Origin: a virus
Strand: one strand, 5' to 3'
DNA: 26,271 bases
IMG/VR virus record: IMGVR_UViG_3300010883_000373
Location: 1-26,271 of that record
Shown here: piece after piece, positions 1 through 26,271 of the stretch
Layout: the number at the start of each line of letters is the position of its first letter
Numbering within the stretch: position 1 is the first letter of the stretch
Program-made: the position numbers and the translations under genes
The notes under the pieces: model-generated
The model's database searches: none
Told to the model about the DNA's origin: nothing
The model's input: only the letters and a program-made list of their open reading frames with translations

Positions 1-170
1 AGGTAAAGGGAACGAATCCGGTAGAAATCACGATACGGTACGACCCAAACATAACAATGTCGGTCGGGTATCGGATTTTGCGGGGATCCCAGACATACGA
101 TATTAACGCAATCATCAACGTCGACGAACGCGACCACACCTGGCAACTTTTTTGCACGGATTCGGAATAA
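1..170 (+). CDS. Phage head-tail joining protein, C-terminal part (gene cut by window start)
   Basis: The window opens inside this gene; reading frame 3 is open from base 3 to the TAA at 168-170 and gives about 55 residues. The visible end contains ITIRYDPNIT, then GYRILRGSQTYDI and a hydrophobic strand before DERDHTWQLFC. This is the pattern of the C-terminal half of the head-tail joining family (PF05521, HK97 gp9 / SPP1 gp16 type): a Thr-x-Arg-Tyr strand, an Arg-Ile-x-(x)-Gly-x-x-Tyr-x-Ile strand and a final beta strand. The family forms a ring between the portal/adaptor and the tail. Its position just before a tail-completion gene and tail tube genes fits. The stop overlaps the next start in TAATG, so translation is probably coupled. 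The family call comes from motif recognition only, because the N-terminus is missing. Confidence 0.75.
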   Translation, partial: VKGTNPVEITIRYDPNITMSVGYRILRGSQTYDINAIINVDERDHTWQLFCTDSE

Positions 171-574
171 TGAGTAGTGAAGCGGCTATATACACCATAC
201 TCGCGGCCGACGGCCCGACGGCGGCGTTGGTTGGCACGAGAATCTACCCTGTCTATGCACCCCAAGCGGCTGTACAGCCCATGGTTGTATTTACGGAAGT
301 CAGTAGTACGAGGGATTATTCCACGGGCGGTTCTACCGGCCTCGAGGTTACGCGATTCCAGGTCACTTGTTGGGCAACCAGTCCAGACGGGGCTATTGCC
401 CTCGCCGCGGCCGTCTTGACGGCACTGGACGGTTATTCCGGCACGGCTGGCAGCCAGGTTATCCAGTTCATGGAATTAATCAGCCGATATGATATCCCAA
501 GCTTGAGTCCAGCCGATGAGTCCCAGAGGGAGTTCGGCAAGGCCTTAGATTTTTATATTCACACATGCAGCTAA
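170..574 (+). CDS. Tail completion / tail terminator-like protein (DUF3168 type)
   Basis: The product is 134 residues from the ATG at 170, which overlaps the upstream stop. An ATG six codons earlier lies inside the previous gene and is less likely. The pattern is an N-terminal amphipathic helix (SSEAAIYTILAAD), a V-G-x-R-I-Y-P strand-turn, Q-P-x-V-V-F-x-x-V, then a beta strand with F-Q-V-T-C-W and a helix AIALAAAVLTALDG. That is the layout of DUF3168/gp17-like tail completion proteins (PF11367), including the xRIYPxxAPQxxxxP signature. These proteins cap the tail end and connect it to the head. Position between head-tail joining and tail tube genes is canonical. Length is normal for the family. 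Confidence 0.75.
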   Translation: MSSEAAIYTILAADGPTAALVGTRIYPVYAPQAAVQPMVVFTEVSSTRDYSTGGSTGLEVTRFQVTCWATSPDGAIALAAAVLTALDGYSGTAGSQVIQFMELISRYDIPSLSPADESQREFGKALDFYIHTCS

Positions 575-602: not shown

Positions 603-1016
603 ATGGCAACAGTAGCAACGAAAGCATACGGAGCGGCATTGACCTACAATTCCGAGCTTGTCGGGGAAATCGTAAGCATCTCCCTGACCCGGAACCGGGC
701 AATTATTCCGATTCACTCGACGGACACCACAAACAACACTATTGAGAAAATCGCCGGCAGCCTAGATGAGGGCGAAATGACCGCAACTTGTTATTATGAC
801 GGCAGCGCGACGGGCGTCTACAACGACTTGAATACCGACTTTCTGGCCGGCACGGCGAACGCCTTTTCCCTGGCCATTTCCGATACGACGACTTTCGCGG
901 GTTCCGGTATCATAAGCGCGTTGAGTTCGGCCGAATTTGGCGGACCCGATGACCCTAATATGGTTACTCTGACGATTGCAATCAGCGGCCAAATCACCTA
1001 CTTAGACCTTGTTTAA
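603..1016 (+). CDS. Major tail tube protein, copy A
   Basis: The product is 137 residues. I chose the ATG at 603 rather than a TTG at 597. The paralogue downstream begins with the same MATVATKAYGAALTYN, and an AGAAAGG-like site (GAAAGG, 589-594) sits 8 nt upstream. The protein is beta-rich, with a repeated S/T-rich strand pattern and a conserved C-terminal block AEFGGPDDPN followed by an alternating hydrophobic strand, as in phage tail tube subunits (lambda gpV N-domain / TP901-1 type). Tube subunits polymerise around the tape measure. Position before the assembly chaperone frameshift pair and the tape measure is diagnostic. Copy B (1035-1448) is about 89% identical by my manual alignment, and a diverged copy C lies at 8498. 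Confidence 0.8.
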   Translation: MATVATKAYGAALTYNSELVGEIVSISLTRNRAIIPIHSTDTTNNTIEKIAGSLDEGEMTATCYYDGSATGVYNDLNTDFLAGTANAFSLAISDTTTFAGSGIISALSSAEFGGPDDPNMVTLTIAISGQITYLDLV

Positions 1017-1034
1017 CATAAGAAAGGCCAACCC

Positions 1035-1448
1035 ATGGCAACAGTAGCAACAAAAGCGTACGGCGCGGCATTGACCTATAATTCCAGCTTAGTTGGTGAA
1101 GTGGTCAGCCTGTCGTTGACCCGTAATAAAGCAATCATCCCGATTCACTCGACGGACACAACAAACAACACTATCGAGAAATTCGCGGGGAGCACCGATG
1201 AGGGCGAAATGACCGTCACTTGTTACTATGATGGCACCTCGGGGGGCGTCTACAACGACTTGAATACCGACTTTCTGGCCGGCACGTCAAACGCGTTTTC
1301 CTTGGCCATCTCTGATACGACAACTTTCGCCGCGAGCGGAATCGTAAGCGCGTTGAGTTCGGCCGAGTTCGGCGGACCCGATGACCCCAATATGGTTACT
1401 CTGACGATTGCAATCAGCGGCCAAATCACATACACAGACCTCGCTTAA
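1035..1448 (+). CDS. Major tail tube protein, copy B (tandem duplicate)
   Basis: The product is 137 residues, starting at ATG 1035 after AGAAAGG (1021-1027). By manual alignment it differs from copy A at about 15 positions, mostly conservative, with no insertions or deletions. The C-terminal AEFGGPDDPN block and the final strand are the same in both except the last few residues. The two genes are separated by only 18 nt, and their DNA is still near-identical in long blocks, so the duplication is recent or kept alike by gene conversion. Both frames are intact and both have good ribosome-binding sites, so both are probably expressed. Whether the tail tube is a mixed polymer or one copy has another role cannot be told from sequence. 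Confidence 0.8.
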   Translation: MATVATKAYGAALTYNSSLVGEVVSLSLTRNKAIIPIHSTDTTNNTIEKFAGSTDEGEMTVTCYYDGTSGGVYNDLNTDFLAGTSNAFSLAISDTTTFAASGIVSALSSAEFGGPDDPNMVTLTIAISGQITYTDLA

Positions 1449-1482: not shown

Positions 1483-1815
1483 ATGCCTATTACAAGAGCC
1501 AAGTTGGACCGTCTAAGAGAACTCGAGGTGGTTGAGGTCGCCGTGCCGGGTTGGAAGGAAGTCTGCTGCGTCCGTGAGCTTAACGCCCTGGAACGCCTAC
1601 AACTCCAATCCACGTGGAATTCTTCAGACAACACCTCACTGTTGACGTTGCTAGCGATGACCATGTGCGACGGCAACGGCGACCGTTTGTATACCGACGA
1701 CGAAAAAGACCTTATAGGGCGGCACAAACTCGAGCGACTGGAACCACTAATTGACGCGTCTCTCAAGCTTTCCGGACTATCGGAAGAGGCCGAGGAGACC
1801 GTCAAAAAAAACTAG
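1483..1815 (+). CDS. Tail assembly chaperone, short form (gpG-like)
   Basis: The product is 110 residues from ATG 1483; an upstream in-frame codon at 1408 lies within copy B and is rejected. It is alpha-helical and acidic, beginning MPITRAKLDRLRELE. A strand with G-W-K-E-V-C-C-V-R-E-L follows, then helices typical of tail assembly chaperones that sit between tail tube and tape measure genes. It ends at TAG 1813-1815 directly after a slippery A AAA AAC. In lambda the equivalent gpG and the frameshift product gpGT hold the tape measure soluble and recruit tube subunits. Sequence similarity within this family is low, so the call rests on position, size and the frameshift. Confidence 0.75.
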   Translation: MPITRAKLDRLRELEVVEVAVPGWKEVCCVRELNALERLQLQSTWNSSDNTSLLTLLAMTMCDGNGDRLYTDDEKDLIGRHKLERLEPLIDASLKLSGLSEEAEETVKKN

Positions 1816-2024
1816 AAGCGGACGGCCGGCGGCAGTTTTGGTTTGGGCTCGCGCGTGAGTGTGGGTACCCGCACCCCGACGTTATGCTGGCCGGCCTGTC
1901 CGCCCGTCAGGCGCTTGAAATAGAGGCAATGTGCTTTATTGAAAACGAGAAGCGAAACCCGAAACCCGTACAGATGTCAGAACTGGACATACGTAATGCA
2001 ATGACTTCCTTCGTAAAAAAATGA
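1483..2024 (+). CDS. Tail assembly chaperone, -1 frameshift fusion (gpGT-like)
   Basis: Reading 1483-1812 and then re-reading base 1812 in the -1 frame continues the protein to TGA 2022-2024, giving about 180 residues (110 + 70). The extension begins LEADGRRQFWFGLARE, then has YPHPDVMLAGLSARQ and an E-x-E-A-M helix. This is the gpT-like C-terminal domain seen in many siphophages (F-W-x-x-L at the start, helix after ML.GLS..Q). It has no start codon and ribosome-binding site of its own near its beginning, which supports expression only by slippage. The stop overlaps the next gene's ATG (ATGATAG). The fusion is made in small amount relative to the short form in known systems; the ratio here is unknown. 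Confidence 0.8.
1806..1812 (+). promoter_or_regulatory. Programmed -1 ribosomal frameshift slippery site A AAA AAC
   Basis: Eight consecutive A residues (1804-1811) followed by C place AAA AAA AAC in the zero frame, with the TAG stop as the very next codon. The heptamer A AAA AAC allows both P- and A-site tRNAs to re-pair one base back. The -1 frame then stays open for 70 codons to 2024 and encodes a recognisable gpT-like domain. A stop codon immediately after the heptamer is common for this kind of site. I see a GC-rich stretch (GGACGGCCGGCGGC) starting 8 nt downstream, but no convincing long stem-loop. Confidence 0.85.
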
Positions 2025-2533: not shown

Positions 2534-5398
2534 ATGGCCGAGAATCTAGTATTACGACTAATCGCCAAGACCGACAGCTTAGAAAAAGGATTGAACCAAA
2601 CGAGCCGGAAGCTTGCGCGGGTAGAAAAGTCCTTTTATAAAAGCAGAAACGCCAGCCGCGCTTTCGGTACCAGTCTATCAGGCATCGGCCGGAAACTCAT
2701 CGGATTTGCGTCGGCGGCCCTGGCCGCGGGTGGCGTCGGCGGCCTGGGGTTCTTAATCAAGAAGCAAATGGAATCCATAGATTTAACGGCCAAGTGGTCG
2801 GACCGTTTGGGCGTTGGGACTGATAAGCTTGTCGGCCTCCAACACGCCGGGTCACTGGCAGGCGTTAAACTCAAGGTAGTCAATCTCGCTTTGCAGCGAA
2901 TGACGCGGCGTGTTGCCGAGGTTGCCATGGGCACCGGGGAGGCACAGGCGGCCCTCAAGGAACTCGGAATTGACGCCGTTGCCGCCAACGCGGCCGGGGC
3001 GCATGAGTCGTTCTCACAAATCGCCGAGGCACTAAGCAAGGTTAAAAACCAGAGCGACCGGGTCCGGCTGGCGTTCAAGATTTTCGATTCTTCTGGCGTG
3101 GCAGTTGTCAATATGATGAAGGATGGCCGGGCGGGCCTTCAGGGTATGCAGGCAGACGCGGAAGCCCTCGGGATGACCTTTTCCCGGTTCGAAGCCGGAC
3201 AGGTCGAGGCGGCCAACGACGCTATTGCAAGAATGAAACAAGCGCTGCAAGGCGTCGCCCGAGTTGCCGCCATAAAACTTGCCCCTGTTATTAAAATACT
3301 ATCGGACTCAATAACGGACGCAATGACGGCCGGTGAAGGGTTCGGCCGGGGAATGATAACCACGATGGTTTCCGTAGCGAAAGCAACCCTAAAAGTTGTT
3401 GACGCGGTTGAGACGGCGGCCCGGGTGATGCGTACCCTCTCTGGACACGTTGGCGAAACGGCCGATGAGGAAATCGCAAGAATCTACAAAAGCAAGGTCC
3501 CAGGCGATGCAAAATTTGGGACCCCAAGAATGCCCTTAAAGCCAGACCAATCCTACCTTCATAATTTGGCGGTCGGCGGGAGCAACAATTTTAAAGGGCT
3601 CGAGGCCTTCGGCACTGACATCCAGGAGAAGGGTAGTTTTGGGCCCGAAGACCAGGGTATCTTCGATGAGACCACTGTCGAGGTCAACAATCGCCGAGAG
3701 GACAGTTCGGGCATGGAGCTTCTAGCCCTGGACACAATGGGCGACAAACTTCTAAAAGGTATTAGCGCCCTCAACGCGAAGCGGGTTGCCGAGGGGAAAT
3801 CATATCAAGAAGAACTCGACGCGGTTATGTCTAGGAAGGTCGACTCCGACGGCCCGCTAATTAAAGACAGTAAGGCCGCCGACGCGGCGGACAAGCTCAC
3901 GCAAAGCCTTCAGCAGCAAATACGGGCAATGGAGCTCGTGAGTAGCGGTAAAGCCAAGAACGTGGCCGAATCTATGTTTATGCTGAAGGCCGAGGAAGCC
4001 TACGGGGCGGGGACAACCCTGGCGACTGAAGCCATCAACAGCTACGTGTCGGCTCTCGACCAAGTCGAGGGGGCCAAGAAGCGGGCCGCCGGCCTCGAGC
4101 GGACGGCATTGATTCTGGACGGTATGGACCGCGAGATTGACCTGATAGGCAAAGTTGGAAACGCGTGGGAGCGATCGCGTGAGTTCGCGGAACTCCATGC
4201 GGCGGCAATTGACGCGACAAGCGGCAACCTGGAAGAATACAACGCTATTATGCTGAGGGCGGAGGTCTCCTTCAAAAAGGCCCGCATGGCAGAGCAGTGG
4301 GCCGAGGTTGCGAATACCATGGAGACAAGTTTCACTACGGCGTTTGAACGGATGGCGTTCGAGGGGCAGAAGTTCGGCGACACCATGAAGCAAATGCTTC
4401 AAGAAGTTCTAAAGGAAATTATCCGGATCCAGGCAATACGGCCGATGGCCAAGGCAACCAGCAATCTTATATCTGCCGGCATCACCGGCCTAATGGGCGG
4501 AATCGCGGGACTCGGCGGCGGAGCGGCTGCGGCGTCGGGTGGCAGTCTGGCCGGGGCCGGAACGCCGATGAATCCGGGGCTTGTACTCCATCGCGGCGGT
4601 ACGGTTGGCAGCATCTCGACGCCAAAACGCATGGTGCCAGCCGGGACCTTTACGGGGGCCCCGAAGTTTCATGACGGACTAAAGGTAGATGAGTTCCCCG
4701 CGATCCTGCAGAAAGGCGAACAGGTTATCCCGAGGGGCGGCGGCAATAAAGAACCCTCGCGGGCGACCCCCCCGAGCGGCCTGCCGGCCCCGCCGCCGAT
4801 GTCAATCGCCATACCGGAAATGCCGGTCCCACAGCCGGCGTCAATCGCCATACCGGAAATGCCGGCCCCGCCGCCGATGTCAATCGTCATGCCGGAGATG
4901 CCGGACCCTCCGCCGATGTCAATCGTCATGCCGAAAATGCCGGCAATGTCAGAGCCCTCGAAATCTGCGGGCGATATCGCGAGAGCGATCACCAGGCCGC
5001 CGGCCGGGGACCGCGAACCCCCCCGGGGCGGATCCAGGGGCTTTATCTCGACGCCCCTGGCGGTGGGTCCGTCAATTCACACGCCGGCCCGGCCTATCGC
5101 GACGCCGGCCAAGGCCATCACGGGGGATGGCATTCCCACGGCCCCCATGGCGGCCGCGGCGGCCCCTACGGCGGCCCAAACCATCCAGGCGGCCCAGCAG
5201 GGGTCCTCGGGTAAATCAGGCCGTTCCGAGCCGATTGTCGTGACAATAAATACAGTAAATAAGGGGGCTCCTCAGCAGACGGACGCCCGGGCATCTATCG
5301 CGAAAAATGGAGATCTCATAATCTCAATTATAAATAATGACGTTGACCAGAATGGGCGTACGCGGCAGACAATACGCCGGGAGGCTTCTAGTGTATGA
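2534..5398 (+). CDS. Tail tape measure protein
   Basis: At 954 residues this is one of the two longest genes in the window. It follows the chaperones and precedes the tip genes. The N-terminus is helical (KTDSLEKGLNQTSRKLARVEKSF), followed by a glycine/alanine-rich hydrophobic stretch near residues 57-75. Long helices carry the middle. Residues about 585-680 resemble the C-terminal domain of lambda-type tape measures (W-A-E-V-A, F-x-x-x-F-x-x-M-A, F-G-D-T-M-K-Q-M-L, then a Gly/Ala-rich membrane-like segment). Near 715-735 is F-P-A-I-L-Q-K-G-E-Q-V-I-P-R, a motif common near tape measure C-termini. Residues about 752-803 are four 13-residue Pro/Met repeats, followed by a Pro/Ala-rich tail. The protein sets tail length and is ejected during DNA entry. 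By lambda-type proportion its size would suggest a tail of roughly 130-145 nm (inference). Confidence 0.9.
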   Translation: MAENLVLRLIAKTDSLEKGLNQTSRKLARVEKSFYKSRNASRAFGTSLSGIGRKLIGFASAALAAGGVGGLGFLIKKQMESIDLTAKWSDRLGVGTDKLVGLQHAGSLAGVKLKVVNLALQRMTRRVAEVAMGTGEAQAALKELGIDAVAANAAGAHESFSQIAEALSKVKNQSDRVRLAFKIFDSSGVAVVNMMKDGRAGLQGMQADAEALGMTFSRFEAGQVEAANDAIARMKQALQGVARVAAIKLAPVIKILSDSITDAMTAGEGFGRGMITTMVSVAKATLKVVDAVETAARVMRTLSGHVGETADEEIARIYKSKVPGDAKFGTPRMPLKPDQSYLHNLAVGGSNNFKGLEAFGTDIQEKGSFGPEDQGIFDETTVEVNNRREDSSGMELLALDTMGDKLLKGISALNAKRVAEGKSYQEELDAVMSRKVDSDGPLIKDSKAADAADKLTQSLQQQIRAMELVSSGKAKNVAESMFMLKAEEAYGAGTTLATEAINSYVSALDQVEGAKKRAAGLERTALILDGMDREIDLIGKVGNAWERSREFAELHAAAIDATSGNLEEYNAIMLRAEVSFKKARMAEQWAEVANTMETSFTTAFERMAFEGQKFGDTMKQMLQEVLKEIIRIQAIRPMAKATSNLISAGITGLMGGIAGLGGGAAAASGGSLAGAGTPMNPGLVLHRGGTVGSISTPKRMVPAGTFTGAPKFHDGLKVDEFPAILQKGEQVIPRGGGNKEPSRATPPSGLPAPPPMSIAIPEMPVPQPASIAIPEMPAPPPMSIVMPEMPDPPPMSIVMPKMPAMSEPSKSAGDIARAITRPPAGDREPPRGGSRGFISTPLAVGPSIHTPARPIATPAKAITGDGIPTAPMAAAAAPTAAQTIQAAQQGSSGKSGRSEPIVVTINTVNKGAPQQTDARASIAKNGDLIISIINNDVDQNGRTRQTIRREASSV
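4787..4942 (+). repeat. Four tandem 39-nt repeats in the tape measure gene
   Basis: The units each encode 13 residues of the form (x)PPPMSI(A/V)(I/M)PEMP. The four copies read APPPMSIAIPEMP, VPQPASIAIPEMP, APPPMSIVMPEMP and DPPPMSIVMPKMP. The reading frame is kept and copies differ by a few substitutions. The repeats sit after the VIPR motif, outside the coiled-coil part that sets length, so expansion here need not change tail length. Confidence 0.9.
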
Positions 5399-5839: not shown

Positions 5840-7369
5840 ATGCCAGCAGTACCAACACCCGGGGCCAGTAATAATACGTGGGGCACCGAATTGAACGCCC
5901 ATCTCGTTGTCCACGCGAACGCGAGTTCCGGGGCCCTCTTTAATATTCTTCAAAACTCGGCGGACACCGACACCATTTTAGACCTAGGGAGCACCACCAC
6001 CGACAAGGTCACCATTACGGCCGGCAACGAAGTATTGTTGACGTTGACCGAAAGCACCCAGGACGAAGTCATCGTCGGCGACGGTGGCGATGTCGATTTC
6101 AAGGTACTTTCGACGGGTTCGCTCGAAGCGGTGCACGTCAACGGGGCCAATGGGATTGTCACCTTGACCTCGCCTAATGCCGTCAACCTTACGATCGCAC
6201 GGAATACGGCCGGAACTGCGTCCATGGAAATCAGCAACACGGCGGATAATTGGTATATGGGAGTCCCCTCCGGCGTCGGCAGTTTTGCCATCTCGACACA
6301 GGAAAACGTCGCCTTGGGGACTGAGTTCGTCATCATGGCCGACGGCAAAATCGGCATAGGGACAAAGACCCCCGTGGGCAACCTCCAAGTCAATGCCGAT
6401 TTCGGGGCCGACCAGACGGCCGGTCTGTACTTAATTAACACCGGAACGGCTACGACTGCCGACGTAACGCCTATCGCGTTTTCTACGCGGTCGTCCAACT
6501 GGGGCACCATACACGCGGCGACTATTGCGTGTGAGACAAAGGGCGGCCTTGACGGCGGTGGGGAACTATTTTTTTCCACGACGGCCTCGGGGTCAGATAG
6601 CACGCCAAACGAAGCGCTCCGGATAGACGGTTCTGGCAACATCGGGATTGGCACATCGTCGCCCGGGGGGATCCTGGACATTTCCGGGGCAACCCCAATT
6701 GTCAATATCACGGCGACATCCGGGTCGGCTTATCTTCAGGTCATATCGGCAAATGACTCAACGAGCCAGCTTTACATGGGAGATACTGACGACGCGAACA
6801 TCGGAAAAATCGCATATGACCAGACGACCAACGCAATGACATTGGTGACGAACAACGTCGTCGCGGCCACAATTAACAGTGATGGGAGCGTGACCCTTCC
6901 AATAGGCCAACTGACGTTCCCGGCGGCGGCCAACGTCAGTTCCGACGCGAACACTCTGGACGATTACCAGGAGGGGACCTGGACGCCAGTGTTGGGCGGT
7001 TCCGGCGGAACGTCGGGGCAGACTTACTCTGTACAGGTTGGAGCTTACACCAAAATCGGTCGCCAGGTTACGGCCATCGGTTTCATTCAACTAAGCGCAA
7101 AAGGCACCATTACAACGGACGTTGAAATCAGTGGGCTGCCATACACTAACGTCGGCTCTTCTGGATACTCGCCCGTGTCTTTTTCCCTGGCTAGCAACTG
7201 GGCCCTTACGGCCGACCATCACCTCGAGGGCTATGTCGGAAGTTCGTCGGCGGTTATAAACTTACGCGAGACTCAATATCAAAGCGACACCGTAGCGGCC
7301 CTGGCGACCGCCAACGTAGAAAATGCTACGGAGATTGCGTTCTCTGTTTCCTATTTCACTGCTAGCTAA
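5840..7369 (+). CDS. Tail fibre / receptor-binding protein 1
   Basis: The product is 509 residues from ATG 5840, 7 nt after AGAAAGGG. The N-terminus P-A-V-P-T-P-G-A-S-N-N-T-W-G-T-E-L-N is shared with the next gene and is typical of proteins docking to a virion through a short W-G-x-x-L-N module. The middle is Thr/Gly-rich beta repeat, including two GIGT-x-x-P motifs (GKIGIGTKTPVGNL and GNIGIGTSSPGG), a hallmark of trimeric fibre shafts. The C-terminal 135 residues begin LDDYQEGTWTPVLGG and carry Y-T-K-I-G-R-Q-V, a receptor-binding beta-sandwich type common in phage fibres. It sits between gpM- and gpL-like genes, so it is probably attached to the tail tip. It is most likely a homotrimeric host-recognition protein (inference). 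Confidence 0.75.
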   Translation: MPAVPTPGASNNTWGTELNAHLVVHANASSGALFNILQNSADTDTILDLGSTTTDKVTITAGNEVLLTLTESTQDEVIVGDGGDVDFKVLSTGSLEAVHVNGANGIVTLTSPNAVNLTIARNTAGTASMEISNTADNWYMGVPSGVGSFAISTQENVALGTEFVIMADGKIGIGTKTPVGNLQVNADFGADQTAGLYLINTGTATTADVTPIAFSTRSSNWGTIHAATIACETKGGLDGGGELFFSTTASGSDSTPNEALRIDGSGNIGIGTSSPGGILDISGATPIVNITATSGSAYLQVISANDSTSQLYMGDTDDANIGKIAYDQTTNAMTLVTNNVVAATINSDGSVTLPIGQLTFPAAANVSSDANTLDDYQEGTWTPVLGGSGGTSGQTYSVQVGAYTKIGRQVTAIGFIQLSAKGTITTDVEISGLPYTNVGSSGYSPVSFSLASNWALTADHHLEGYVGSSSAVINLRETQYQSDTVAALATANVENATEIAFSVSYFTAS

Positions 7370-7387
7370 TTTAAGAAAGGCCAAACC

Positions 7388-8437
7388 ATGGGCGCAGTTC
7401 CTACCATCGGCGGTTCCAATAATACTTGGGGCACCGAACTTAATGCACATCTGCTTGTGCACGCGAGCGCGACGACCGGGGTTCTCCATAACATCATTCA
7501 GAACTCGGGCGACACAAATACTTATATCGACCTCGGCGGTACAGTTGCCGACGAAGTCACCATCCTGGCCGGCGGGCAGCGACTCATCACGGCGACGGAG
7601 ACAACCCAGAATCTGGTCGAGATTAATGAGACGGCGGGGGACTGCGACTTCATCGTCAATAGTTCAAGTAATGAGGCCATCACGGTCGACGGGGCATCGG
7701 GGCACGTGACGCTTAGGCAAGGCACGGCGGACCCTACTGACCACGGGCTGACGGTTACGGGTCTTCAAACGAGCGGTCATACGGGCTACATTTATTCAAA
7801 CAGCAGCCAGACGGGAAACTGTCTCCGCGTACTCCAGGACGGGGCCGGCTCGAGCGGGTCGGCGCTTTATATCCGGACAGACGGCACGGGACACCTCATA
7901 GAGTGCATCGATACCGCGACCCCCGTTTTCATCGTAGAGCAACTCGGAGCGGTTACGATGGAAGGCATTCTGAACCTTAACGCCGGCCGAATATCATTTC
8001 CGGCAACGCAAAACGCGAGCTCCTCCGCCAACGTCTTGGACGATTACGAGGAAGGTGCTTGTACTTTAGGACTTACTTTCGGAGGTGCCGCGGTCGGTAT
8101 GACAACGTCAGCGACCTCCGGGTATTACACCAAAATAGGAAATATGGTACACGTATCCGGTTACCTCTCCTTAACGGCCAAGGGGTCCTCTACAGGGGCC
8201 GCGTCTATAACGGGCCTGCCCTTTACCGTATACAATAGTACGGCAGCCTACACGGGGGCCCAGGTGTCTACGAGTGCCGTCTCGTACGCAAATCAGCTTT
8301 CGGCATACGCGGAGATTAACACAACGACGATTACTTTAGCCGAGAATACTGAGGCCGGCACGCGTACGACCCTGAACGAAGGCAACTTCTCCGACTCGTC
8401 ATGGGTTATAGTCGGCGTATCCTACCGGGTCGCGTAA
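7388..8437 (+). CDS. Tail fibre / receptor-binding protein 2 (paralogue)
   Basis: The product is 349 residues. The first ~80 residues (GAVPTIGGSNNTWGTELNAHL...) align with fibre 1 without gaps through the IQNS..DT..DLG..V.D.VTI.AG block. The C-terminal domain starts LDDYEEGACTLGLTFGG and has Y-T-K-I-G-N-M-V and L-T-A-K-G, matching the same domain in fibre 1. The shaft is shorter and lacks the GIGT motifs. Ribosome-binding site AGAAAGG is followed by CCAAACC and ATG. The pair therefore share anchor and head domains but differ in shaft, consistent with duplication and divergence. Likely role: a second receptor-binding or side fibre (inference). Confidence 0.75.
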   Translation: MGAVPTIGGSNNTWGTELNAHLLVHASATTGVLHNIIQNSGDTNTYIDLGGTVADEVTILAGGQRLITATETTQNLVEINETAGDCDFIVNSSSNEAITVDGASGHVTLRQGTADPTDHGLTVTGLQTSGHTGYIYSNSSQTGNCLRVLQDGAGSSGSALYIRTDGTGHLIECIDTATPVFIVEQLGAVTMEGILNLNAGRISFPATQNASSSANVLDDYEEGACTLGLTFGGAAVGMTTSATSGYYTKIGNMVHVSGYLSLTAKGSSTGAASITGLPFTVYNSTAAYTGAQVSTSAVSYANQLSAYAEINTTTITLAENTEAGTRTTLNEGNFSDSSWVIVGVSYRVA

Positions 8438-8465
8438 TTCCTGACAATTTAAGAAAGGCCAAATT

Positions 8466-8534
8466 ATGGGTTTAGCACCAAAAATCGGGGGGTCCAGATG
8501 GCAACCAAAGCAACAGCCGGCTCAGGGACAATAA
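8466..8534 (+). pseudogene. Remnant of a third fibre gene (N-terminal codons only)
   Basis: A third AAGAAAGGCCAAATT leader and ATG (8466), like those of the two fibre genes upstream, opens a frame reading MGLAPKIGGSRW. This parallels MGAVPTIGGSNNTW of fibre 2. The frame stops after 22 codons, having run into another frame of the tail tube copy C gene, whose ATG is at 8498. The simplest reading is a fusion joint where a fibre gene was deleted, or a tail tube copy inserted, ten codons after the start. It may still be translated as a short leader peptide that couples to copy C. Confidence 0.6.
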
Positions 8535-8959
8535 TAAAATGGAACGGCACGACGGTCGGCGAGGTAATCAGCCTTTCTGGCGGCCGGACGCGGAACCCCG
8601 TAGAAATCCTGTCGGTGGCGACGACTAACAATACCAAGGAAAGGTGCCCGGGTAGCATCAACTCAGGCCGCGTCAATATCAAAATGTTTTATGACGGAGC
8701 AGACTCGAGCACTTACAACACGATGAATTCTGACTATCATAGCGGTGTAAGTCGGTCACTCACGGTCGAGGCCAACGACGCGACGACAAGCACCTGGACG
8801 GGCAACGGAATCATAATGGGTCTTACTGTCGCAGAGTTCGGCGGGCCGGACGACCCCAATGTCGTGACAATGTCGGTTGCCATGAGCGGACTTTTTGCGT
8901 TCGCGGTCACGGGCGACTATGGGCACCTCGGGTATGGGGACCTTTTATACGGGAGTTGA
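8498..8959 (+). CDS. Tail tube-like protein, diverged copy C
   Basis: The product is 153 residues. It shares with copies A and B the start MAT(K/V)AT, the VGE(V/I)(I/V)SLS strand, the T-T-N-N-T-x-E motif, the F/Y-Y-D-G turn, D-L/M-N-(T/S)-D-(F/Y) and the invariant AEFGGPDDPN block. It has a C-terminal extension (GDYGHLGYGDLLYGS) that the others lack. Identity over the alignable part is low compared with A versus B, so this is an older paralogue. Its place near the tip genes suggests a terminal or tip-proximal tube ring, or a decoration/fibre-anchoring role. A GGGGGG tract 5 nt before the ATG can serve as a ribosome-binding site. Confidence 0.7.
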   Translation: MATKATAGSGTIIKWNGTTVGEVISLSGGRTRNPVEILSVATTNNTKERCPGSINSGRVNIKMFYDGADSSTYNTMNSDYHSGVSRSLTVEANDATTSTWTGNGIIMGLTVAEFGGPDDPNVVTMSVAMSGLFAFAVTGDYGHLGYGDLLYGS

Positions 8960-8963
8960 AATA

Positions 8964-9587
8964 ATGCCGATTGATACACCGAAAGCGATAAATAAGCAAA
9001 AAAACAAGTTGGCCGTCGGCGGCCAGTTTACGCGGATAGATGTCGATATCCCCGAAATAAACGACGCGTTGTATTTTATTAATGACAACGTCAGCGTGAC
9101 ATACAACAGTCAACTTTACACAGCGCTTGCGTTTACACTGGGCCCGTGGACGTCGGACACCGGGACTTTGCATACGCGGACATTGAGCATAGGCAATGCC
9201 GATATATCGCAATTTCTGACTCCCTATATCGAGGCCAATGACGGCATCATAGGGGCGACGATTACGATAACCCCATACTTCTCGGCCCACCCTACGGCGG
9301 ACCTCTCAAGCAAGGCCCAGGCCCTCGAGGTGGTCGGATGTGTCCCCAGTGAGCAATGGATTCAGTTTACCCTTGGAGCACCGTCTCTATTGTTCCGCCG
9401 AGTGCCGGCCGCCCGATACCTTCCTACGTCGTGCCGTTGGCTAGCACAATTCAAGGGCACCGAGTGCGGTTACGACGGCACCGAGGAGTCGTGCGACGGG
9501 CTGTACACCCGTTGTGTGGAACTCGGCAACCAAACCCGATTCGGGGCCGAGGTCGGGTTAAAGCCGAAAACGTCTAAATATGTCTAG
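8964..9587 (+). CDS. Minor tail protein, gpL-like (probable Fe-S tip protein)
   Basis: The product is 207 residues from ATG 8964, with GGGAG 8 nt upstream; the frame is open further upstream but lies within copy C. The N-terminal part is beta-rich (G-G-Q-F-T-R-I-D-V-D-I-P, V-T-Y-N-S-Q-L-Y-T-A-L-A-F). The C-terminal domain has R-Y-L-P-T-S-C-R-W, G-T-E-C-G-Y-D-G-T, S-C-D-G and T-R-C-V-E-L-G-N followed by R-F-G. Cysteines fall at about 157, 168, 177 and 184. This four-Cys layout with C-G-Y and R-F-G is that of lambda gpL and DUF2163/BR0599-type proteins; in lambda the four cysteines bind a [4Fe-4S] cluster. It belongs to the tail tip complex with the NlpC/P60 and gpJ-like genes next door. Confidence 0.8.
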   Translation: MPIDTPKAINKQKNKLAVGGQFTRIDVDIPEINDALYFINDNVSVTYNSQLYTALAFTLGPWTSDTGTLHTRTLSIGNADISQFLTPYIEANDGIIGATITITPYFSAHPTADLSSKAQALEVVGCVPSEQWIQFTLGAPSLLFRRVPAARYLPTSCRWLAQFKGTECGYDGTEESCDGLYTRCVELGNQTRFGAEVGLKPKTSKYV

Positions 9588-10005
9588 TCGTGAAAAGTGG
9601 TTCCGTAAAGAGCTCGACCCTGACGACATGGAATACGACGCGTCTGACCTAATCGGCAAGTCCTACGACTCGGTTGGCGGGTGCTGGGGTCTCTGCTGCG
9701 AGATCGCGGCCCGGCGTGGGTCCAAAATGCCTTATCACGACACCCCCGAGGACCTGGACAATGCCAACGCGTTGTTTGTGCATATCAAAAGCAAGCGATT
9801 TACGCGAATAGAGCGGGCGACGCCTTGGTGTTTGGTGGCGTTCAAAATATTCCACGACGGCCAAATACGATGGCACGCGGGCACGGTCGACGCGTCCGGC
9901 GCTAAATTCGTTCACGTACGCAAATCAACAGGCGTTTGCAAGGGGCGACTACATCACCCATTCTGGGCCGAAAGTTTTGAGGGTTTTTATGACTACACCG
10001 GTTGA
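9580..10005 (+). CDS. NlpC/P60 tail tip peptidase (gpK-like)
   Basis: The product is 141 residues; its ATG overlaps the upstream stop by 8 nt. The catalytic motif is D-S-V-G-G-C-W-G-L (Cys35), with the His motif I-R-W-H-A-G-T-V (His99) and a following strand A-K-F-V-H-V. The closing segment H-P-F-W-A-E-S-F-E-G-F-Y-x-Y is common in phage tail NlpC/P60 proteins. The family cleaves peptidoglycan cross-link peptides. In phages with this gene order it is a tip-associated enzyme helping DNA entry rather than the main endolysin. It lacks the N-terminal JAB/Mov34 domain found in lambda gpK. Confidence 0.85.
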   Translation: MSSREKWFRKELDPDDMEYDASDLIGKSYDSVGGCWGLCCEIAARRGSKMPYHDTPEDLDNANALFVHIKSKRFTRIERATPWCLVAFKIFHDGQIRWHAGTVDASGAKFVHVRKSTGVCKGRLHHPFWAESFEGFYDYTG

Positions 10006-13000
10006 GCGAATCAAAGTATCGTACAGGACAAACCCTTTTGACCTGCAGACACGGCGGGTCACCAGCTTGCCCTGGGCGAACCAGACGCTTGCAGAAATCA
10101 GTGAGGCCTATGTGCCGGGCGTCGAGACCACTATATGGGTCAACCAGCGTCCAGCAAGCAACACCGCCAGGAGGGCCCGGCCGGGGGACGAAGTCGTCAT
10201 AATCCCATACGTGGGGGATCCCATCACGGCGACTATCGCAATAATTGGATACGTCAGCGCCGGAATGGCGGCCGGCGGGATCTCGGGCTTCCTATGGACG
10301 GTGGGCGTGCACGCGGCTATTGGCATCGCCGGCGGGTTTATAGTGCAAGCCCTCGCCAAGACACCGGAAGGCGCAAGCTACAGCTTCGGGTCCAGCGAAG
10401 GCGGGCAAAGCGCGGCAAAGTACGCATGGAGCCGACATAGCACGCAACGCCCCGGATTGGTGGTTCCAATGAGTTTTGGGCGCAATTCCCACATGGGGAA
10501 CATAATCGCGGCGTGGACCGAATACAGCGGCCAGGCCGAAACCATGAAAATGGCCATTTCAATCGGCGGCATGGGCCCCCACCAGGGGATTGTCACGGAC
10601 TCGGAACGGGTCAACGACCAGCCCCTGGCGAATTTTAACAACGTAACGGCAACAGAGAAAAAGGGGACATATTCCCAGACGGCCGGTTTTAGTTCGCTGA
10701 AGCTTCCCTACGCAGCGGACCGGATTGTATCGGCCGACGGCGGGCCCATCACCTGGACGACCCCCGGCGACCGATACGACTCCCTGGAAGTTCGTCTGGA
10801 ATATCGCGCAATGTTCCGGAATCCACAAGGCGGGGCGTCTAATCACACGATAGGCATTTCAGTGGAAATCAGCCCGACGGGGCTCGGGACTTGGTCGACT
10901 CTGGTTTCCGATGACCTTATAAATGACACGACCGAATCGCAGTTTGTGACATACGCGACGACCGGCACCTACACGGGCGGGGCGGCCGTCTCGATTACCA
11001 ATGGAACGAGATATGACCTGCGCGTGACCAAAACATCGGCCGATACAAGCGAAGACACGTATTTTGATGACTTGAAAATCCAGACCGTTCACGAAGTCGT
11101 TGACACCGGGTTTGTTTACCCGGGCCAACACATTGTTTATGTCGAGGCCCTCGCGACCGACCAACTTTCTGGCGGCCTGTCTTTTCGTTGTGTTTCGGAT
11201 GACCTAATAATTGACACCTATGACGGGGCGGTCTGGACCCTCCAACACTCGAGCAACCCGGCTTGGGTCATATGGCATCTTTTGACACAACCCGTCATAG
11301 CCGGCGACGGGAGCGGCACTGCCTACAACGTCACGCGATACGACGGGGTTGACCCGAGTAAGCTGACCCCATACCTGGCGGATTGGTTTGTCGCGGCCGA
11401 ATACTTCGACGAGTTGGTTGACGATGGCAACGGGTCGACGGAAGCAAACATCTCTTTCAACGGCAGCTTTGACTCCGGCACTAATATTTGGGACGCTGTA
11501 ACGGATGTCTGCAAGGCGTCGCGGTGCGAACTTATCCCGCAAGGAACCGGGTTCCTTTTGCTCGTCGACAAAGCCGAGACGGACGAACCGATTCAGATGT
11601 TTTCCGCCGGCAACATAATTCCGGGGACTTATCGCCGGCCATACCTGACGCGGGCGGAGCTTGTTTCCGAGTTTCAGTTGGACTTCAGAAATAAATATCT
11701 AGACTACGAATTGACGCCCGTTACTGACCCGGTCGAAAATATTAACAGTGTGCCGAATGTCGCAGTACTGTCGGGATTCGGTATTACATCGCCGTCGCAG
11801 GCCTGGCGGACGAAAGAATGGGTTTCCCGAAGAAACCGATACATAAAGTCCGAATGCCAATTCGAAACGACCATGGACGCCCTCAACTGCCAACGCGGCG
11901 ACATAATCTACGTCGCGGCCCCGTGGCGGCAGGACGGCCGTGTCGTTGATTCCCCAGCAAGCAATCAGGTCACCCTGGACGCCCCCAAGACGGCCTCGGC
12001 CGGCGACACCCTACTAATTCGCACCCATGGCCAGACAAGCGACGAGGTCGAGCGTCACACGGTTTCAGCCGTCAACGGCGCAGTAATTACCATCGTCGGG
12101 AATTTTGTCGTCCGGCCCAGCGAGAACGACGTCTATGTGTTTGGACCTACTGACCGGGTCCTGCAGAAATGGAGGGTCAATCAGATTATCGAGCAGGCCG
12201 ACCTGAGGGCTAAGATTACGGCGACCGAGTACCACAGCGAACTATACGACGGCGACGCGACGACACCGGCGATAGACTCCTCAAGCTTCGTAGCACCGGT
12301 TACAGCCCCTAATCGGACTCGACCGGTAACAAAATACGACCTGACGCGAATTGCCCCCCAGTCCATGCTGGGGCCGCCGGCCCTTGACGCCCCGATGATA
12401 ACCGACGTTGTCTTTTCAGACGATATCGGCAATAGCCGCCTAACGTTTACGGCGGGGATCCTGACCTATAAGGGAGTGACTTACGATATCGTCTCTGGGG
12501 CGACATCGACTGGCAGATATGTATATTGGGACCAGGCCGACACGCCAACTGTGTTTCAGGACGATGACGATTTGAGCGTTGCGACTGGCGTGGACAAATT
12601 CGTCGTTGCCCTCAATGTCTCAGGGGTGACCAGACTTGTCGGAGCCGGCCGGCCAATAGACGGGTCGAGCATTCTGGACGATACAGTCCTCACCTCGGCT
12701 TTCTCCGTCGAAAAACTAAGCGCGATATCGGCGTATCTCGGCGACGTCCAGACGGGCACATTGACCGGGACAACCATAACGGGCGGAATAATCAGGACCG
12801 CGACATCGGGCCGCCGAATGGTTATGACGGGCGACGGGGTTACGTTGTATTCTGGGCAAACCTCCGTTGGAATAATTGGAACGACCGGCAACGGCGGAAG
12901 CAATGTTCTAATCGGCACGACCGGCAACGGCGGATCCGGGCTGACGGTGGGCGACGGACAAATCGGCTCGATTAATAACGCGAACAACGGAATTCCAATT

Positions 13001-13168
13001 TACATCAATCAGTCGCAAACCGTCGCGGACATCCATTTGCCCGACCGGGTTTCGACGCCCAGTGGACTCGCCGAGATCGGGGACCTTTCTGTCGTCGGCG
13101 GGATTTTGAAAATCTGCACGGCCGCCGGGACCCCGGGAACTTGGACTACCGTGGGGACCCAGACCTAA
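9989..13168 (+). CDS. Central tail tip / host specificity protein (gpI-like N-terminus fused to gpJ-like)
   Basis: The product is 1059 residues from ATG 9989; GAGGG (9979-9983) lies 5 nt upstream, and a TTG at 9977 is less likely. Residues 1-70 look like the beta-grasp, ubiquitin-like domain of lambda gpI (ending in A-R-P-G-D-E-V-V-I-I-P). A Gly/Ala-rich hydrophobic stretch (about 80-115) follows. From about 120 the gpJ pattern begins (Y-x-W-S-x-x-S-T-Q-R-P-G, V-P-M-S-F-G-R). A beta-rich insertion lies at about 260-370. FNGSFDSGTNIWDAVTDV and a C-x-x-E-L-I-P-Q-G segment then resemble the hub domains of tail tip proteins. The C-terminus is Gly/Thr-rich with a repeated IGTTGNGGS. It closes the tail and probably contributes to receptor contact. 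Confidence 0.8.
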   Translation: MTTPVERIKVSYRTNPFDLQTRRVTSLPWANQTLAEISEAYVPGVETTIWVNQRPASNTARRARPGDEVVIIPYVGDPITATIAIIGYVSAGMAAGGISGFLWTVGVHAAIGIAGGFIVQALAKTPEGASYSFGSSEGGQSAAKYAWSRHSTQRPGLVVPMSFGRNSHMGNIIAAWTEYSGQAETMKMAISIGGMGPHQGIVTDSERVNDQPLANFNNVTATEKKGTYSQTAGFSSLKLPYAADRIVSADGGPITWTTPGDRYDSLEVRLEYRAMFRNPQGGASNHTIGISVEISPTGLGTWSTLVSDDLINDTTESQFVTYATTGTYTGGAAVSITNGTRYDLRVTKTSADTSEDTYFDDLKIQTVHEVVDTGFVYPGQHIVYVEALATDQLSGGLSFRCVSDDLIIDTYDGAVWTLQHSSNPAWVIWHLLTQPVIAGDGSGTAYNVTRYDGVDPSKLTPYLADWFVAAEYFDELVDDGNGSTEANISFNGSFDSGTNIWDAVTDVCKASRCELIPQGTGFLLLVDKAETDEPIQMFSAGNIIPGTYRRPYLTRAELVSEFQLDFRNKYLDYELTPVTDPVENINSVPNVAVLSGFGITSPSQAWRTKEWVSRRNRYIKSECQFETTMDALNCQRGDIIYVAAPWRQDGRVVDSPASNQVTLDAPKTASAGDTLLIRTHGQTSDEVERHTVSAVNGAVITIVGNFVVRPSENDVYVFGPTDRVLQKWRVNQIIEQADLRAKITATEYHSELYDGDATTPAIDSSSFVAPVTAPNRTRPVTKYDLTRIAPQSMLGPPALDAPMITDVVFSDDIGNSRLTFTAGILTYKGVTYDIVSGATSTGRYVYWDQADTPTVFQDDDDLSVATGVDKFVVALNVSGVTRLVGAGRPIDGSSILDDTVLTSAFSVEKLSAISAYLGDVQTGTLTGTTITGGIIRTATSGRRMVMTGDGVTLYSGQTSVGIIGTTGNGGSNVLIGTTGNGGSGLTVGDGQIGSINNANNGIPIYINQSQTVADIHLPDRVSTPSGLAEIGDLSVVGGILKICTAAGTPGTWTTVGTQT

Positions 13169-14972: not shown

Positions 14973-15404
14973 CTACTTTTTGGCGATTCCTTTCAACTCT
15001 GCCATTATCCTCAAAATCTTCCGGGTCCGTTTGCGGTCCAGGTCAGTTGATTTGTGCGGCCGCCAGCCGGGGCCCCACCTATGTAGTGCCGCTAAAGCCG
15101 CCGGGCCCACTTCAAGGCCCTTTCGCTTCAAATGCTGGCCATAGTGCTCAAGATAGAGACGTGTCATCCGGCGGGCACTGAAGGCGTTCCAGCGGGATCC
15201 TATCGTCCAATGAGCGTGGCCGATTATCCGGTTGCAGTCACGGACGTAAATCGGCCGAATCTGAAAGAGGCCGGCGGAATCCTCCGATTCTACGTAAGCG
15301 TTGGGATCTCCGCTCGACTCGACCAGCGCGAGGGCCGTCAGAAACGTCGACGACACGAGCGGAGCCGGCCGCACCTCGGCGGCCGGCGGCATATCAGCAA
15401 TCAT
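14973..15404 (-). CDS. SLT/lysozyme-like lytic transglycosylase (probable endolysin)
   Basis: The product is 143 residues on the minus strand. Residues 21-36 read FLTALALVESSGDPNA, with Glu29 in the position of the catalytic acid of goose-lysozyme/SLT-type transglycosylases (A-x-x-x-E-S-S-x-x-x-x-A). Next comes S-A-G-L-F-Q-I-R-P, equivalent to the family G-x-x-Q-(I/V)-x-P. R-W-G-P-G-W near the end resembles the family's closing N/R-x-G-x-G motif. There is no clear signal sequence, so export would need a holin. The ATG overlaps the stop of the upstream lipoprotein (ATGA). The family cleaves the glycan MurNAc-GlcNAc bond. It is oriented against the late genes, which is unusual for a lysis gene. 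Confidence 0.8.
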   Translation of the reverse strand: MIADMPPAAEVRPAPLVSSTFLTALALVESSGDPNAYVESEDSAGLFQIRPIYVRDCNRIIGHAHWTIGSRWNAFSARRMTRLYLEHYGQHLKRKGLEVGPAALAALHRWGPGWRPHKSTDLDRKRTRKILRIMAELKGIAKK

Positions 15405-25258: not shown

Positions 25259-25750
25259 ATGAGTTTTTTAACGCAAATATGGGGGTTCCTACTTGAGCTC
25301 CCCCCGCTGATTGTAATTCCGCATTATGAGGCCGGCGTGAGGCTGCGACTGGGCCATCATACGGCCAGCCTCGGCCCTGGGCTTCATTGGCGGGTCCCGG
25401 GCGTCCACAAGGTGCTCACGGCCAGTACGATGGAGACGGTGGCGGACTTAACGGCACAGGTCGTCCAGGACTTGGCTATTGAAGCGAATCTACGCTATAG
25501 GATGGCCGACGCGGGGATTGCCCTCTTGGAGGTGACCGACTGGGAAGATAGCCTATACAATCTGACGGCCGGTACTATCGCCGAGTATATTCTGAGGTTC
25601 CCGGATCGCAGCCCTCTTGAGTTGAGGGGCGAGATTTTTAGCGACGTCAGAGATGAGGCGGAAATCTGGGGCGTCGAGGTTATTAGTCTGAAATTCTCGA
25701 CATATACGCGGGCCCGGACTTTTAGGCTTTTACAGGACGGGCTATTGTGA
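25259..25750 (+). CDS. SPFH / band 7 (stomatin-like) domain protein
   Basis: The product is 163 residues from ATG 25259, 9 nt after AAGGAAGGA. The alternative start at 25208 overlaps the previous gene. Residues 1-22 are hydrophobic, likely membrane-associated. The core reads G-V-R-L-R-L-G-H-H-T-A-S-L-G-P-G-L-H-W-R-V-P, then D-L-T-A-Q-V-V-Q-D-L-A-I-E-A-N-L-R-Y-R-M-A-D. It continues with L-Y-N-L-T-A-G-T-I-A-E-Y-I and I-F-S-D-V-R-D-E-A-E-I-W-G-V-E-V-I-S-L. This is the band 7 order: L-G-P-G-L-H-x-x-x-P, D-x-x-x-x-x-x-x-x-x-x-Y-x-V/M, then W-G-(V/I)-x-V. It is short, lacking the long C-terminal coiled coil of bacterial stomatins and HflK/C. Its role is unknown. Confidence 0.75.
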   Translation: MSFLTQIWGFLLELPPLIVIPHYEAGVRLRLGHHTASLGPGLHWRVPGVHKVLTASTMETVADLTAQVVQDLAIEANLRYRMADAGIALLEVTDWEDSLYNLTAGTIAEYILRFPDRSPLELRGEIFSDVRDEAEIWGVEVISLKFSTYTRARTFRLLQDGLL

Positions 25751-26271
25751 GCCGCGGAAGATATACGGGCAGTGGTCGGGCAAAGGGGCGGCCTCTTTTA
25801 GACCGTGTCAGCAACTGGAACGAATCTTGGTATCAACAGCTGCGACAACAGGCCTGTTATATTGCCGGCCGGGGGTGGAATTCCCTAGTTGACCTTGACG
25901 AACTAATCGCCGAGGGCTGGCTATTGTCAGCCCGTAGACAGGACCCGGCCGACTCGGAACTTTCTTACAAGGGCCGGATCCGGATCTTTATGCAAAACGT
26001 TATGTTTTCTAGACGGGCCCGCCAGGAGTCCGACGGGGTCGAGCGTCCAGAGCCGGCATCGGCAGACCCCGGGGTTGACATAGAGACCCGCGATACGGTA
26101 GCGTTTCTCATGGGGCACCTGAGTGAAAGAGACCAGCGTATCATGAGAATGAGGCACTGGGACGGCCTCTCATATGCGGCCATCGGCGAGGCACTAGGGG
26201 TCACGGGTGAGTCCGTCAGGTTATGGGTGGCAGCGGCAGCTGCAACTATGAGAGAGGTGGCTTGCAAATAG
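25747..26271 (+). CDS. Sigma-70-like factor, candidate late transcription regulator
   Basis: The product is 174 residues from GTG 25747, which overlaps the previous stop (GTGA). Residues about 45-90 (NSLVDLDELIAEGWLLSARR, then F-M-Q-N-V-M-F-S-R-R) resemble sigma region 2 with D-L-x-E-L-I-A-E-G. Residues about 120-165 are a region 4-like helix-turn-helix: L-S-E-R-D-Q-R-I-M-R-M-R-H-W-D-G-L-S-Y-A-A-I-G-E-A-L-G-V-T-G-E-S-V-R (described as positions 127-161). The window ends at its TAG. Late or alternative sigma-like factors in this position commonly switch on structural genes, so it is a candidate for late-gene control. Confidence 0.65.
   Translation: MSRGRYTGSGRAKGRPLLDRVSNWNESWYQQLRQQACYIAGRGWNSLVDLDELIAEGWLLSARRQDPADSELSYKGRIRIFMQNVMFSRRARQESDGVERPEPASADPGVDIETRDTVAFLMGHLSERDQRIMRMRHWDGLSYAAIGEALGVTGESVRLWVAAAAATMREVACK

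Follow-up and report, generated by a model that had tools for sequence, protein, structure and literature searches.

Tail tubes are usually described as one repeated protein, and the question raised by this locus is what two nearly identical tail tube genes, lying in tandem, are doing in one virus. The window analyzed here is the whole 26,271-base stretch of an IMG/VR virus record, the ends of which are open; it begins inside a head-closure gene, which matches phrog_25. Tail tube gene A (603..1016, plus strand; ATG at 603, TAA at 1014-1016) and tail tube gene B (1035..1448, plus strand; ATG at 1035, TAA at 1446-1448) are both intact ORFs of 137 aa. The 18-nt leader between them (1017..1034, plus strand), which contains a GAAAGG site, is in frame with both genes and, once past the stop codon of A, reads as six sense codons (HKKGQP). 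The two proteins are identical at 122 of 137 residues (89%) without gaps, a similarity far beyond chance (BLASTP E value of 4e-91), and the original prediction of an intact, near-identical pair lying 18 nt apart was borne out. At the DNA level, A and B share 84.7% identity (63 differences in 411 nucleotides), and the two longest stretches of identity, of 43 and 41 nt, correspond to the long identical blocks that had been predicted.

The 15 residue differences between A and B are mostly conservative. Three of them fall in residues 32-55 (the inter-ring loop) and none in the helix at residues 71-82, and the residue common among the relatives is kept by A at about five of the differing sites and by B at about four. 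Both genes have the same GC and GC3 as the neighboring genes. Each gene is preceded by its own GAAAGG ribosome-binding site, approximately 8-9 nt 5' of the ATG, with an anti-SD duplex energy of -3.2 kcal/mol. The original prediction was therefore right in giving each gene its own site but not in calling these sites strong, since both are moderate; most of the relatives' tube genes carry a GAAGGAG-type site, which is stronger than GAAAGG. Predicted promoters and terminators in the window showed no excess over shuffled sequences, and an Rfam search of the window gave no matches.

The assignment of A and B as tail tube genes, also predicted originally, is supported by their relatives, their fold, and their position. 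Gene A matched phrog_158 (major tail protein) weakly, with an E value of 0.013, and no named tail-tube family was matched by B or C, the latter being a third copy described below. Among the 14 alignment members, 12 matched phrog_158 at E<=0.1 (best 2.6e-10); relatives also matched phrog_1407 and phrog_41, and some matched the Pfam tail tube families PF16461, PF06199, and PF16460. The AlphaFold model of B (pLDDT 70.6) was matched by Foldseek to the lambda gpV, monocin, and GTA tubes with E values of 1e-5 to 5e-4 and a probability of 1.00, and the model of C (pLDDT 68.7) matched the monocin, GTA, lambda, and R4C tail tubes. Both models are of moderate confidence (pLDDT of about 70, TM of 0.5-0.6). 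For the tail tube fold predicted for B and C (a beta sandwich with one helix and a flexible inter-ring loop), confidence is good at the level of the fold and modest in its details. The matched lambda chains in Foldseek were full length (approximately 245 residues); lambda gpV carries an additional Ig-like domain at its C-terminus, which the window proteins lack. A profile search against PDB sequences gave no meaningful match.

The surrounding genes agree with this assignment. Upstream of A lies a tail terminator gene (170..574, plus strand; Pfam Tail_completion_gp17, E value 7e-15; phrog_347 tail terminator, E value 1e-15), and downstream of B lie the tail assembly chaperone genes G and GT (1483..2021, plus strand, with G at 1483-1815; phrog_344 tail assembly chaperone, E value 1e-12). 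An A8 run at 1804-1811, followed by CTAG, is present near the end of G and the -1 frame is open, and GT is likely made by a -1 programmed frameshift at this run. A tail-completion or neck-type gene separates the chaperone genes from the gene for a 954-aa tape measure protein (2534..5398, plus strand; phrog_9483, E value 3e-58), in which 39-nt direct repeats (PEMPxPPPMSI-type units) were observed at 4782-4937. A 161-aa gene, named by position only, stands in place of lambda M and is followed by two paralogous fibre-type genes (5840-7369 and 7388-8437, plus strand; phrog_18345 tail fiber, E value 5.5e-10), the N-termini of which are 58% identical. The tail-tip genes (8964..13168, plus strand) are L-like (8964), K-like (9580), and J-like (from approximately 9992), and their matches are phrog_18 and phrog_329 (minor tail proteins) and phrog_31 (central tail fiber J, E value 4.5e-84). 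The order of terminator, A/B, chaperone, and tape measure indicates that A and B stand in place of lambda V, and the lambda order V-G-GT-H followed by the tip genes is the same as in the window. Lambda, however, has a single tube gene, whereas the window has three.

The third copy, gene C, was absent from the original prediction. It encodes a diverged tail tube paralogue of 153 aa with a C-terminal extension and lies after the tape measure gene (8498..8959, plus strand). C is 41% identical to A and to B over 135 residues (E values of 8e-38 and 4e-37, respectively), shares the motif GGPDDPN with both, and was also recovered when the whole record was searched. In the tree, a 99/99 branch separates A, B, C, and the distant relative L019 from the other relatives, the exact placement of C and L019 being unsure as both are long branches. 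A, B, and C are thus paralogues, giving this genome three homologous tube genes, all intact.

The sequence upstream of C bears on how this copy reached its present place. Positions 8450..8497 on the plus strand hold a leader and, from a third fibre-type gene, a 5' stub; counted with its overlap on C, this stretch spans 8450-8534. The stub begins with MGLAPKIGGS, resembling MGAVPTIGGS of the fibre gene at 7388, and shares 76% identity with the beginning of that gene across 51 nt (family D3); its reading frame is 22 codons long and runs into the start of C. With this fibre-like start and a frame that ends over the start of C, the present site of C appears to be the 5' end of a third fibre gene, which suggests that C either replaced a fibre gene or was inserted at one. 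Being behind an out-of-frame stub, C may be poorly translated. The 13-mer TAAGAAAGGCCAA occurs in the window at 1019-1031, 7372-7384, and 8450-8462, that is, only before B, the second fibre gene, and the C stub; the expected value for this recurrence is 0.02. Other copies of TAAGAAAGGCCAA in IMG/VR stand before unrelated genes, and its role as a general tail-gene signal was therefore rejected; it could be a trace of shared recombination ends or no more than a favoured site for ribosome binding. In viral records with kin of the fibre genes, which are fragments, no tube paralogue was detected by profile search.

Two IMG/VR searches identified 11 records containing a relative of A/B, and a profile search of these full records, which are virus records and possibly fragments, gave one tube match each. 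In L004, L005, L015, and L016, the tail genes are visible through to J and there is still one tube match, indicating that the single copy in these four relatives is not explained by a truncated tail region; L015 and L016, whose tube genes are identical, were counted as close kin. In L015 and L016, the L-like gene follows within 13 nt of the gene after the tape measure, which implies that the block containing both fibre genes and C (5840-8959) is extra in the window. A and B are the nearest kin of each other (89%), the next kin being 53% identical. IMG/VR searches with C and J gave no relatives of these, searches with B, C, the profile, J, and the fibre protein together returned only the 11 single-match relatives of A/B, and no relatives were found in genome contigs. 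The original prediction that siphophages normally carry one major tail tube gene holds for the 11 related records but fails in actinobacteriophages, in which two or three paralogues are common.

We compared A and B by the Nei-Gojobori method and obtained a dS of 0.54, a dN of 0.083, and an omega of 0.15. Single-copy tube genes of different related phages gave dS values of 0.27-1.02 and omega values of 0.15-0.32. The duplication had been predicted to be recent; this was rejected as stated because the dS of A/B falls within the range between phages, so that the event is not clearly recent, and both genes look old. Their omega is as low as that of single-copy orthologues, indicating that neither copy is decaying and that A and B are under purifying selection. 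Gene conversion, which the original prediction offered as the other source of the identical blocks, found weak support. Codons 71-84 and 119-131 contain no synonymous change between A and B (pS of 0, compared with 0.48 elsewhere), and orthologue pairs mostly vary there. These blocks were picked after the fact; codon permutation gave a P value of 0.07 for the longest identical run alone and 0.012 for the three longest jointly. These values suggest that gene conversion between A and B is plausible.

Siphophages that each carry several paralogous major tail genes have already been described and are not new. In the Microbacterium phage DizzyRudy, three proteins (gp17, gp19, and gp20) are annotated as major tail proteins, with pairwise identities of 51%, 42%, and 46%; the genes for gp19 and gp20 are direct neighbors, separated by 16 nt. 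A tblastn search with DizzyRudy gp17 gave matches at 480 places in 243 phage records, mostly from Arthrobacter, Gordonia, and Streptomyces phages, and most of the matching records listed have two or three places. All cluster DJ Gordonia phages have two related major tail genes, those of FortCran (gp22 and gp24) being 43% identical (PMC12859696), and Damascus (cluster EL) also has two such genes, with features of this kind reported to be shared by clusters AM, AU, AW, BI, CC, and DJ (PMC11080557). As in the window, these actinobacteriophages carry several paralogous major tail genes, there between the terminator and the tape measure. In contrast, the adjacent pair in the window is 89% identical rather than 42-51% (DizzyRudy) or 43% (FortCran), and its third copy lies after the tape measure beside fibre genes, unlike the copies of either phage. 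One DizzyRudy copy has a large extra C-terminal region. Sequence homology between this family and the window protein was not detected, as none of 50,697 phage records was matched by B in a tblastn search at E<=0.01. What is new here is the closer tandem and the translocated third copy, in another lineage. Mixed tubes are known from SPP1, in which two subunit forms, gp17.1 and gp17.1*, are combined in one tail by frameshift (PMC8718954). A and B would likewise be two forms of tube subunit in one tail; the SPP1 forms, however, come from one gene, whereas A and B are separate ORFs with their own starts and stops and have no added domain.

We consider it fairly likely that A and B are functional, slowly diverging paralogues of the major tail tube protein in a lambda-like siphophage and that they assemble together and serve mainly dosage, with C as an older variant that is minor or close to the tip. 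One late mRNA would serve the translation of both A and B, and the two proteins would be built into the same hexameric rings, so that the tube would be a mixture of nearly interchangeable subunits; the original prediction had allowed for a mixed or an alternately used tube. The second gene would mainly raise the supply of the tail protein required in the greatest number. C would be a much older paralogue that, along with fibre-type genes, was relocated to an accessory block preceding the tail-tip genes and now makes a minor ring or a variant subunit near the tip. The location of C beside tip and fibre genes, together with its retained tube fold, makes such a minor or near-tip variant probable.

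A different division of labor, which we regard as unlikely, is that A and B are specialized, either alternating within each ring (A3B3, as in fused trimeric tubes) or building separate segments of the tube; the pair would then represent a two-domain tube protein in unfused form. P74-26 provides the precedent, with a fused two-domain trimeric tube protein that is thought to have arisen by gene duplication and fusion (PMC10034513). Both P74-26 and the window have two tandem tube units, but the P74-26 domains are fused and 16% identical, whereas A and B are unfused and 89% identical. That A and B share one frame, separated by one stop and six sense codons, and that both are kept under selection would fit specialization. 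The in-frame spacing, however, has a one-in-three chance, the mostly conservative differences are not clustered in the helix or the inter-ring loop, and the possible gene conversion would oppose specialization. An extended form of this arrangement, in which A/B rings follow a fixed pattern, C forms a dedicated or fibre-docking ring at the tip, and A/B is the unfused forerunner of two-domain trimeric tube proteins, appears distinctly improbable.

The history of the pair can also be read otherwise. Because the dS between A and B equals that between different phages, import by recombination fits as well as duplication, and one of the two genes could be a xenologue from a related phage with no present function past redundancy. 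The leader of B, which contains TAAGAAAGGCCAA and so differs from that of A, would agree with such an import, as the 13-mer otherwise stands only before a fibre gene and C. We consider this somewhat unlikely: A and B are mutually nearest, with the next kin far more distant, their GC and GC3 match the neighboring genes, and selection acts on both copies. It is very unlikely indeed that two single-gene strains were joined into a false tandem during assembly. The source is an IMG/VR virus record with open ends, and no second record of the exact A-B junction was found, but the copies differ at 63 sites and have distinct leaders, the junction has no shared stretch of at least 21 nt by which the end of A and the start of B could have been fused, and C is a true paralogue in the same record.

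Three related tube genes at two stages of divergence offer a natural case for separating dosage from ring mixing and from special places in the tail. A phage with A, B, and C is also a case for how fused two-domain tube proteins could arise, and the window adds an unrelated lineage beside the actinobacteriophages, where several tube genes are already common.

Some other genes of the window were also observed. A possible transglycosylase (SLT) gene, below the Pfam cut-off, lies on the minus strand at 14973-15404, with its neighbors in the opposite orientation. A Band 7/SPFH domain protein, unexpected in a small phage, is encoded at 25259-25750 (Pfam E value 2.4e-9), and a protein with a sigma-70 region 4 domain is encoded at the right end, at 25747-26271 (Pfam E value 1.5e-8).
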